Part shown: piece by piece, positions 892 through 14,100 of the stretch
How the letters are laid out: each line of letters starts with the position of its first letter
Numbering within the stretch: the first letter of the stretch is position 1
Assembly: GCF_000003815.2 (NCBI RefSeq)
Contig: NC_049993.1
Location: 17,059,565 to 17,123,564, forward strand
Direction of reading: 5' to 3'
Source: Branchiostoma floridae
Taxonomy: Eukaryota; Chordata; Leptocardii; Amphioxiformes; Branchiostomatidae
DNA length: 64,000 bases
Made by a program: the position numbers and the translations under genes
Notes under the pieces: generated by a model
What the model saw: the letters and a program-made list of their open reading frames with translations, nothing else
Database searches by the model: none
Told to the model about the DNA's origin: nothing

Positions 892-2197
892 TTAACGAAC
901 CTTAAACACTAGGTTCCAGTCCCCGCATTCCTGTTTCCATTTCGGCGCCACCATGTCCCTCTTCTCCATGAACGGAGTGGGATCCACCAACCCTCCGGAC
1001 TCCGTCTGTCTGATGGCGAGGTGGATGTGGTTGGGTTGGCAGGCAGATGACGTCACCGTACCAATCAGGGTTCCTTTGAACACCTATGAGGAATACGGCA
1101 ATGAAATAGTTTCAAACAAATATGTGTCGGCCAATACATTTTGTTTAATATATAGATGCCAAAAATGTCAAAGAGCTTGACATATTTTCATAAAACCCCC
1201 TTGTTTTTTTTTTGTTTGAACCTTTGTTTATTCATGAAAGCTCAAATCGGCCTGCAGGAAGTTTTTCATTCAGGCCACGAGGAAAGAGGCAAGGGTCATA
1301 AAGTAAAAGTATATAACAGAGATATAGTTTACATGGTTTAAAGTCCTAATGAGTCTCTATAAGTCTATATACACAATTTTTACATACATGGTACAAAATA
1401 CATAGTAGTGACAGCTGCACTACATGATTCGAGTCCGTTCATGTTCTGTTGGTCGTTCCCGTTACTGCTACAGAACAGGGGCAAACCCCGCTATATTTAA
1501 ATATGTTTATTTTATAATCGAAAGGTCTTCTTACCTGTTTACCCTCTTTCGCGGTGAGGAAGTTCACATTATCAATAATAATTTCTAGTTTTTCCATCGA
1601 GTCTGTCGTTATGGTCACTTGGTTATTGCCAGATCCTCTTATAGTGCCGGAGAATGGTGCACCGATCTGGAAGTAAAGGTGCAAAAGGTATCTCTTTTGT
1701 ACAAATGGCTTCACAAAAATAATTGTAAACTAATTTCACCGGTCTCATATAATGGACAGTTAGCGTTAAGATGTATGCCATCTTATACGTTTGTTCATAA
1801 ACTTTTAGCTTTTATACCAACGTAACAATTCGAAACAATCAGTATGATTAGCAATCAGTGTGATCAGCAAATGACAAAAATATATCATTTCACAAGTTGC
1901 ACTCAGTTTCATGGAGTACAAGGTATTTGACACAGATATTACTATGTTGATGCTTTTCTGATGAAAGATACATTACACAAGATACTTAAAAGATACATAA
2001 GAGGAGCATTAAGATTACTGCTCACCTGTTGTCCCGCGGCTGCCTCCAGAAGCACCCCCTGTTCAGCGTACTTCCCTTTTCCCGTACTCGGGTAGAAACC
2101 GTCTCCACAGGAGTCGGACTCCAGGTACTTTCTGGGGAAATCCTGGTCAGCCTTGTTCCCGAAGATTTGCTCAATCAGGGATTTAGCTTCGTCGTAA
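892..2197 (-). other. LECT2 / M23-peptidase-like C-terminal domain of the LLTP gene (exons 24-26)
   Basis: Three exons (2197-2026, 1666-1535, 1083-892) encode about 130 residues. The features resemble vertebrate LECT2, a secreted M23-fold protein: a start at SCGDGFYP, then [12 protein letters not shown] where LECT2 has HxGxD, then [13 protein letters not shown] (the beta-hairpin APFxGxI signature), GTLIGTV, an HIH motif in [11 protein letters not shown] (about residues 1116-1118), and VDPTPFM matching the terminal DPTxYL. The HxH motif is kept, but the upstream His and Asp zinc ligands are replaced by Glu and Leu, so a catalytic metallopeptidase is unlikely. A binding or scaffold role is inference. 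Confidence 0.65.
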
Positions 2198-11100: not shown

Positions 11101-14100
11101 GCTTGTATCGCATCGAACTGTTAGATGACCCCCATGGAGGTTGCTCGTGCAGCCCCTATTGATGAATGCTGATGCTTGTATCGCTTCGAACTGTTACATT
11201 GTAAGAATTAAAAGGGTATCGGAATTTGACAGTGACCTTTTGTCACCTAAATCTTAGGTGGATCGGGAAGGCCTATGTTCTCTTCGGGATAGGAGCTATC
11301 TGCGGGGTAAACTATGGCGCTCGATAGTAGTTTTATTCTAGATGCTAGATCTCAATGATTAACTCCAACCGCGTAAAAGTACTTAGTACTACTAAGTGCC
11401 TAGTTAATCCAAGAGATGTAGATCTCATTCAGCCCTGAAGAGAGACCACCCGGTGTACGGTAGACGTGATACCATGATTCCATACTTGTACTTACCGTAG
11501 TCCTCGTTCTGAAGCTTTTGCAGCTTCTCCGGATCCCCTGGTATGCCAGCATTGGGGTTATACCTGCAACGTTGAAGACTGGTTAGAATACCGTCCTATC
11601 CTTCTATTATGACCTTATGATCTTCGAAATTGAAATTCTGTGTCTCGTATTGGCAATAGACATGCTCCGTTCAAGTTTTAAAAGTAGCATTACAATTTGA
11701 ACAAACTTACCCCGGGGTTGCTTGATTTGGTGAATAAAACATTTCCTTAATTTGGACCGTGTGAGGAACCTCGTGGTCCTTGTGGTAAATAATTTGCTGC
11801 AATCAGGAAAGAAATAACTGGTGACACTTCGGCAACTAAGCCCATGGCAGTCCTGTATGTCTTTCTATAAGTGTCGGGTTGATATCATATCATTAAATGT
11901 CATAAGCATCATGTTTGACTTATAGACCATTTACAACGATATAGAAATTGCTGTAACACTATATTGTATTGCAAAGGTTTCCATTTTATTTGCTGCTTTT
12001 ATGCATGCTGCTTCCATCACATATTACTCTTACCTTCTCGTTCTTGGCTTTAGCGTTGCGGACCACGTGACCTTGTTTTGTCCTAGTGAACATAATTCCA
12101 TCAGGAGTGACCTTGGCTACGTAGGAAAGGTCATCTTCGCCTGAAAATCATGAATATGAATATGTGAATTTGACTTTGTTAACAAGTTCATTTTATTTTG
12201 CAACTGATATTCTATAAACAAGACAAACTGATTTTTTGGAGGATAGGGTTCATACCTTCATGCCCTGTTTCTTTCACACTGTAGGCCCATGGTCTGGCAC
12301 GAGTCATGGTCTTAAACAGACAGATAGAAAAACTGTAATAGCATTCAACAAAATAAATTGTACTGAATAGCATGTCATTTGTTTCATTAATGGCAGTGAT
12401 ATAGCGATAGTACATTATTCCAATTCGCAGTATTTTGGCAGTATTTGCTTCAGACTATTTTCGTTTCTTATTATCGCTTCCCTTGTGCGCAGAATGTTGA
12501 GAAACGACCAAAAAGGCGAACAATGCCCCTCACCTGAGGAGTAGTATGGAGGCGTGCAGACAGAAGTCCCACCAGGACCTTCTTCGTGCCCAGCACGTGA
12601 TGATGTTCATCATGGGGATGGAACACGCGCACTACATCGCCGTTATTAGACACGGTGAAAAGAAACCTGGCAAGAGCACCAAAATATCATCACCATCATC
12701 GTACTTCCGGTTACACCGGTGAGGTACAATACATAGTACAGTTTAGCTACAAATAGAGATTGTCCATGTAAAAGGCGGAATTGCCTTTTATGACTGTCCA
12801 AAACATCTCTATACACAGGAGGAATTCATTGACATTTGCTCGTGACCGAGCATAAAGATTAAGCCTCAGTTGCTATTTGAGAGTGACGGTGTCTCATGTG
12901 ACTACTCAAGCTCAGGCCTGTACGGAAAAGTCTAGGACAAATACAATGTAGTTATTTATGTGTTTTGACCAATGATAATCTTTACAACACTCTTTATAAC
13001 AGGACAAACTAGTTAGAATTGCTATTACAGTTGCTATTCCTTCTCAAGATACAAACATCACCTAGGTGTAAAGCAGTACCTTTTAGAGTAGTCCAGGTCA
13101 TCTAATACAGCTTGGTTTCCTGTGTGTCAATGAAAATGGCACAGGGTTACTCATAACGTGCAACTGATTTGCATACCTATAACACACTGGCAGACAATAC
13201 AATTATATAATGCCGCCACATGTCGTCCAGCTGAGCACGTATATAATTTTTTTTAAATGTGTTTATTTGTAAATTCATGCCCGTGGGCTAATTGCAAGGG
13301 TACAGACAGTAACAAAGTAACAAGTGAGCTATCTTATGATTCTACATATTTTACTGGGAGGTTCAGTGACTTCTTCTTAGGAGGCAGTGGCTGATGAAAA
13401 GTCCCACGTTTTTAATTCTTAGTGGGTTTTGTGATTTTAACAGGAATGTAATTTTTGGAGGTCTACTAGCTGGTGAAAGGTTGGAAATATTGTTTTGATT
13501 TTGTCCAAAAGATTCAAACTTGTTTCTTTATATATACGAGTTTCTTTATATATACGAGTTGCAAATACATGATTGCTGTGTATGATTCCCAAATATGTAC
13601 GGGGTGGGGTGGGGCGGGTTTGGTACGTTTCACACCGCACCGACGCGCACCGTATGAGGAAGTAATTACAGAACCAACGCCGAAGAGGTCAACTTTTTAT
13701 GACCTAATTAAGCAATCTGCACATGGAGGCTATATTAATGTAATTACAGTATTTCAATAATGAAGTAAAGGATCCATCGGTGTTTCCTTACCATCTCTGT
13801 GTGCTATCTCTTGGTCCACGTTGTTCACTACCAGATCACAGATGGTGTTGTTTTCATCATCGTGCCGGAGAGGAATGATGCTGAACTAAACAAAAAAGAT
13901 TGAGATGGTTGAAATTGAACGAAGTGTCTTAAATACTGAAACACTGCCGTAGAGGATATCGTGTTGTTATCCCCTGTGTCTAGGGCACAGTATTGGCAGG
14001 CGGGGCCTATCTTACATCTCTCACTGCCCTTTACCTCGCAAACAGAAGTCAGACAAATGCATTACGGGCCGAATAAAGACCCCGTCACAAATCATGAATT

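Follow-up and report, generated by a model that had tools for sequence, protein, structure and literature searches.

The 64,000 nucleotides of the Branchiostoma floridae genome analyzed here (the window; C15:17059565-17123564, contig NC_049993.1) belong to an assembly of 513,431,437 bases in 431 contigs and carry a minus-strand gene whose 25 exons (13885 to 892; Table 1) join in phase into a single frame of 1,104 amino acids (aa), closed by a stop codon at 892. Three parts follow one another in the predicted product: a first half that we assign, with moderate confidence, to a divergent LLTP (large lipid transfer protein), an amphipathic helical stretch, and a C-terminal LECT2/M23-like domain, which is reminiscent of the signaling protein LECT2 (leukocyte cell-derived chemotaxin-2). 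Here, we report the evidence that these parts almost certainly form one gene, and that the fusion looks like a multi-copy gene family of about ten copies.

In the spliced window model, AG precedes 25 of 25 exons and GT follows 24 of 24 internal ends; the alternative two frames contain 58 and 63 stops, against 1,104 open codons in the main frame. A preliminary description of this DNA, made from the letters alone, had proposed a phase-continuous minus-strand gene with a product of 1,160 aa; the gene is borne out, and its product is corrected to 1,104 aa. Since the window exons were picked by eye for an open frame, independent evidence comes from the relatives and not from the openness of the frame. 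The same description had suggested a profile search for both modules, and in the one spliced protein Vitellogenin_N (Pfam, aa 265 to 517, 28 bits, cut-off 24) and Peptidase_M23 (Pfam, aa 985 to 1069, 33 bits, cut-off 28.7) both scored above cut-off. The LECT2 landmarks that it had listed (CGDGFY, APFSG, GTLIG, HIH, and DPTPF) are all read in the spliced frame.

A genome search with the LECT2 end (aa 941 to 1104) gave 25 matches. They group into ten loci spread over seven contigs, namely, C15 (the window and 17.217 Mb), C17, C4, C19 (two), C18, C14 (two), and C2. A separate search with the LLTP-plus-helix part (aa 1 to 940; 49 of 101 first-look candidates scored) gave 54 matches. None fell outside these ten loci, and at every one of them the matches lay upstream of the LECT2 end in the same orientation, over spans of about 7 to 18 kb. 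The C15 and C17 loci were matched over most of the protein. The copy that appears closest by sequence, paralog A (C15:17206824-17218397), contains no N and has all 25 exons, 24 of them equal in length to those of the window, with AG at 25 and GT at 24 of 24 positions. For paralog B (C17), read over exons 5 to 25, 21 AG, 19 of 20 GT, and 20 of 21 equal lengths were found. In both paralogs, exon ends were given a tolerance of up to 12 bases, in steps of three, for finding a splice site; without end shifting, AG and GT are present at exons 1 to 21 of paralog A.

No stand-alone relative was seen with a composite query from the C18 and C19 copies (12 matches, all in the ten loci), a search sensitive to close relatives only. 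Within the window, nothing outside the gene matched better than E 0.87; the 10 kb below the window gave no match at E 1, and two further flank stretches (L028 and L029) gave none at E 0.1 with the full-length query. Pfam M23 had no match across the whole genome, which has little meaning because introns split the domain. NCBIfam gave no usable match near cut-off, and 12 pattern stretches on viral contigs included no relative.

Ratios of nonsynonymous to synonymous divergence (dN/dS) were calculated by the Nei-Gojobori method over codons wholly inside equal-length exons (paralog A without exon 21; paralog B without exons 1 to 4, 15, and 22). Between the window and paralog A, dN/dS was 0.22 for the LLTP part (643 codons), 0.24 for the helix (264 codons), and 0.16 for the LECT2 part (135 codons); between the window and paralog B, it was 0.17 (472 codons), 0.14 (257 codons), and 0.10 (135 codons), respectively, the last two ratios being rough, since dS in these parts (helix, 1.41; LECT2, 1.93) is near saturation. 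Among these three copies, every part shows purifying selection.

For the first half, Vitellogenin_N also exceeded its cut-off in paralogs A (26.2 bits) and B (29.2 bits), covering profile positions 317 to 554 in the window, 315 to 554 in A, and 251 to 573 in B. A profile built from the helical part was compared with 6,511 open frames, taken from 18 stretches of other LLTP loci, three of the flanks, and window positions 18001 to 64000. Its top three matches (E 0.00044, 0.015, and 0.018) were all Vitellogenin_N exons (Pfam) of other LLTP genes, with further matches at E 0.37 and worse; as a measure of specificity, this is to be read with the search set, in which 18 of 22 source stretches were LLTP loci and no other HEAT genes served as a control. 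Among the same frames, neither the barrel profile (best E 0.3) nor the sheet profile found an LLTP exon, and the full-length window protein gave no match at E 0.1 in about 180 kb at other Vitellogenin_N loci (L010 to L027). Several other Vitellogenin_N loci lie at 19.88 to 20.34 Mb of C15, about 3 Mb from the window and paralog A on the same contig. VWD (von Willebrand D) matches at C15:19844449 (minus strand) and C15:20246963 (plus strand) are found, on the same strand, some 35 and 29 kb beyond the 3' side of two C15 LLTP loci, of which they are candidate members. On C6 (15477183-15502696, plus strand), VWD matches recur every ~1.94 kb, many with identical scores, which suggests a recent tandem array. 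At the ten loci themselves, no VWD was found among the matches listed (150 of 427 candidates scored).

VWD or amphipathic regions are common endings of LLTPs, and the preliminary description had implied a contrast between such endings and this gene. For the amphipathic kind, that contrast is to be corrected: the window protein has a long amphipathic region of its own, after which the LECT2-like domain follows. Over aa 654 to 969, the mean helical hydrophobic moment is 0.403 versus 0.222 (standard deviation, 0.019) in 200 shuffles (z, 9.7), with z values elsewhere of 1.6 (LLTP part) and -0.5 (LECT2 part). An ApoLp-III match in the window protein is weak (E 0.0082; 16.7 bits versus a cut-off of 36.3).

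The C-terminal domain was compared across six aligned rows, of which the window, paralogs A and B, and C19 span the domain and C18 and C4 part of it; Peptidase_M23 matched five of the six (37.5 bits against the cut-off of 28.7). Against the PDB, the six-row profile weakly matched LECT2 chains (9non, E 0.0024; 5b0h, E 0.0025; profile positions 7 to 115) and M23 peptidase chains (E 0.0063 and weaker). The top row (E 0.0015), a repetitive designed protein with no stretch passing alone, was rejected as spurious. The LECT2 end of the window alone, run with phmmer against the PDB, retrieved no LECT2 chain and six chance rows. The zinc ligands of LECT2 are presumably His, Asp, and His. Where LECT2 reads HQGVD, the window and paralogs A and B read AEQGVLLE, the C18 copy reads KHQGVDLE and KYQGVDLE in two exons, and C19 reads GDRKGVDLE; the second motif is NHIH in the window, A, B, and C19 and NNIH in C4 (the comparison covers neither the last exon of C18 nor exon 23 of C4). 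Two of the three presumed metal ligands, the first His and the Asp, are replaced in the window, A, and B, with HIH kept. Because of this loss, enzyme activity of the window domain is unlikely; because its presumed zinc ligands are not all present, the C-terminus is classed from its sequence as a LECT2-like domain only and not as a LECT2. The C18 copy has two exon-23-like stretches 400 to 500 bases apart (L041, 1504 to 1659 and 2027 to 2155), which may be a duplicated exon or two overlapping genes.

At the 5' end, about 5.6 kb of paralog A (exon 1 and upstream) was compared with window positions 13792 to 30000, which returned exon 1, one conserved block, and repeat-looking matches; the block (Table 1) is probably a promoter or an untranslated leader. 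A nine-codon ATG exon at 14259 to 14233 joins in phase by eye but was rejected, as it is not hydrophobic and its donor was not found in paralog A. The LLTP part holds seven sequons, where shuffled sequences average 3.0 and a fraction of 0.021 reach as many; this excess fits secretion. Farther upstream, on the opposite strand, a cysteine-rich frame (18298 to 18681, plus strand) resembles a thrombospondin type-1 repeat by eye, and a similar stretch lies upstream of paralog A (L044, about 1930 to 2120). Elsewhere in the window, long open frames (50467 to 53118, plus strand; 57800 to 63114, minus strand) hold near-identical protein segments on opposite strands, e.g., GTAEVVSASGFATKDGQKYLHLHGSISQ and GTAEAVAASGFATKDGQKYLHLHGSISQ, and look like an inverted gene duplication.

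Table 1. Features of the LLTP/LECT2-like gene and its surroundings (window coordinates)
Feature	Start	End	Strand	Basis
Upstream block conserved in paralog A; contains stops and TATA-like GATAAAAG (by eye)	14365	14448	-	Comparison with paralog A
Exon 1 of model (incomplete 5' end)	13792	13885	-	Splice/frame reading, relatives
Exon 2	13080	13119	-	Splice/frame reading, relatives
Exon 3	12534	12666	-	Splice/frame reading, relatives
Exon 4	12256	12310	-	Splice/frame reading, relatives
Exon 5	12034	12140	-	Splice/frame reading, relatives
Exon 6	11711	11796	-	Splice/frame reading, relatives
Exon 7	11496	11563	-	Splice/frame reading, relatives
Exon 8	10850	10977	-	Splice/frame reading, relatives
Exon 9	10500	10584	-	Splice/frame reading, relatives
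Exon 10; Vitellogenin_N match (aa 265-517) starts	9895	10178	-	Splice/frame reading, Pfam, relatives
Exon 11	9444	9498	-	Splice/frame reading, relatives
Exon 12	9088	9222	-	Splice/frame reading, relatives
Exon 13; HEAT_2 match starts	8546	8757	-	Splice/frame reading, Pfam, relatives
Exon 14; helical-domain match ends	8166	8296	-	Splice/frame reading, Pfam, relatives
Exon 15	7716	7915	-	Splice/frame reading, relatives
Exon 16	7127	7272	-	Splice/frame reading, relatives
Exon 17; amphipathic helical stretch (aa 654-969) starts	6481	6593	-	Helical moment, relatives
Run of N inside intron 17	6225	6324	.	Sequence
Exon 18; amphipathic stretch	5330	5549	-	Helical moment, relatives
Exon 19; amphipathic stretch	5064	5206	-	Helical moment, relatives
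Exon 20; amphipathic stretch	4484	4554	-	Helical moment, relatives
Exon 21; amphipathic stretch; paralog A has 9 extra bases	3918	4063	-	Helical moment, relatives
Exon 22; amphipathic stretch	2903	3069	-	Helical moment, relatives
Run of N, 100-base assembly gap in intron between exons 22 and 23	2760	2859	.	Sequence
Exon 23; final helical residues, then LECT2-like domain from Cys 970 (model numbering)	2026	2197	-	Frame, relatives
Exon 24; LECT2-like domain	1535	1666	-	Frame, Pfam, relatives
Exon 25; HIH and DPTPF of LECT2-like domain; stop codon	892	1083	-	Frame, Pfam, relatives

Our best guess, made from sequence, is a lipid-binding protein whose recognition head would have no enzyme activity. 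The protein would be secreted, its helical scaffold and amphipathic helices would bind lipid, and the LECT2-like end, its metal site broken in the window copy, would act as a binding head that docks the lipid-bound protein on a partner, e.g., a receptor or a microbial surface. Lipid binding is the likelier part of this proposal and seems probable; a function of the LECT2-like end in recognition or immunity is tentative, with the odds somewhat against it; and the reading as a whole, stripped of an immune role, we hold to be slightly favored. A lipoprotein-like particle, as first proposed for this gene, might result. A broader view, in which chordates would have a family of soluble lipid-binding recognition proteins built from an LLTP scaffold and an M23/LECT2 head, whose copies keep or lose the metal site, thereby recognize different targets, and make up a pattern-recognition lipoprotein repertoire, is speculative and rather unlikely.

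Several observations weigh against the proposed architecture and role and are taken up here with the alternatives that they favor. Two neighboring genes, one LLTP-like and one separate and LECT2-like, could seem one through phase-compatible exons and an assembly gap; the model is built from genomic DNA, and because the joining intron holds a 100-base gap, which makes the window by itself compatible with a false join, relatives were tested. For seven of the ten loci, the matches comprised no more than one or two exons on the LLTP side and two or three on the LECT2 side, with the gene in between unread, and a conserved gene pair would likewise recur ten times in this order. The end of exon 22 in paralog B lacks a canonical GT donor in phase, which leaves the junction ambiguous there. 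In paralog A, however, the junction has canonical sites and no gap, and exon 23, which holds the final helical residues and the first LECT2-like ones, is conserved as a unit (query residues 1 to 59 match across it in several copies). In the window, A, and B, the frame of exon 23, followed upstream, closes with a stop before a Met is reached, although a start could lie on a further spliced exon. We consider two genes very improbable; the claim of two modules in one gene is upheld by LLTP-plus-helix matches upstream of every LECT2-end locus and by the exon series repeated in gap-free paralog A. Comparably improbable is that the window copy is a pseudogene or a remnant of a family working elsewhere: no start codon or signal peptide could be placed (ATG frames with hydrophobic starts were considered upstream to 22000, none convincingly joinable), and metal ligands have been lost, but 25 exons and their splice sites are intact, dN/dS lies at 0.10 to 0.24, and A and B have lost the same ligands.

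The first half could instead belong to another kind of HEAT-repeat protein, which would make the fusion a HEAT scaffold with helices and a LECT2-like end and without lipid transfer. HEAT_2 scores about as well as Vitellogenin_N (window, 32.7 bits; A, 33.5; B, 26.9, below the cut-off of 27.7), a PDB profile search with the LLTP part returned only HEAT-type chains (designed proteins and the like) and no lipovitellin or microsomal triglyceride transfer protein (MTP), and none of four pieces into which the LLTP part was cut passed the Vitellogenin_N cut-off on its own. The LLTP barrel is not recognized in a model whose 5' end is incomplete, so that the label "vitellogenin-type" stands for the helical domain, where Vitellogenin_N exceeds its cut-off and the profile picks LLTP exons, and not for the first 265 residues, which have no Vitellogenin_N match. 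Against a HEAT protein outside the LLTPs stand the Vitellogenin_N scores above cut-off in the window, A, and B, the three best of 6,511 frames being LLTP exons (in a set drawn mostly from LLTP loci), and an amphipathic stretch that suggests lipid; we regard it as improbable. As for what the LECT2-like end does, the strongest competing idea is a purely structural one: a cap, with no partner of its own, that stabilizes the protein or closes the lipid pocket. Other terminal domains in LLTPs may serve as caps, and the changed ligands in the window, A, and B, like the lack of VWD among the matches listed at the ten loci, are in keeping with one. Against either paralog, dN/dS is lowest in the LECT2 part, which fits structural duty as well as binding, although the near-saturated dS against B makes that ratio uncertain. 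Copies differ at the ligand positions, the C18 exon keeping HQGVD, which hints that the surface matters. On balance, a cap is unlikely, though a serious possibility, and a recognition head remains our preferred reading.

No description of an LLTP plus LECT2/M23 architecture was found among the titles and abstracts listed by a full-text literature search whose coverage leaves out most subscription journals; PMC5752451 reports LECT1 and cites LECT2. The window protein may already be present in gene databases as an uncharacterized prediction. What is reported here is a set of known modules in an order not found described, in a family of about ten copies. If true, it would be a new kind of ending for LLTP-type proteins and would place the LECT2 fold in a setting other than a stand-alone protein. 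The ancestry of LECT2 is, to our knowledge, unclear, and a multi-copy family with variable metal sites offers material for studying how LECT2 arose and whether lipid carriers also serve in recognition.

Among known systems, the LLTPs (vitellogenin, apoB, apolipophorin II/I, and MTP) are linked to the window gene by its helical-domain match to Vitellogenin_N and the amphipathic stretch after it, whereas its barrel is unrecognized by profile and its C-terminus is a LECT2/M23-type domain. A signal peptide and secretion are features of LLTPs, with MTP residing in the ER lumen. Apolipophorin-III resembles the amphipathic helical stretch through the match below cut-off, but in the window protein that stretch is the middle segment of a larger chain. 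The bacterial M23 peptidases are linked to the domain by the Peptidase_M23 matches in its aligned copies and by the weaker PDB chains; in contrast to them, the window copy has an incomplete metal site and belongs to an animal gene with introns. LECT2, a stand-alone secreted zinc-binding protein, shares the CGxGxY start, APF, HIH, and DPT with the window domain, its chains are matched by the family profile, and its HQGVD recurs in the C18 copy; here, however, the domain stands at the C-terminal end of a large 25-exon gene, with the presumed His and Asp ligands changed in the window and paralogs A and B.

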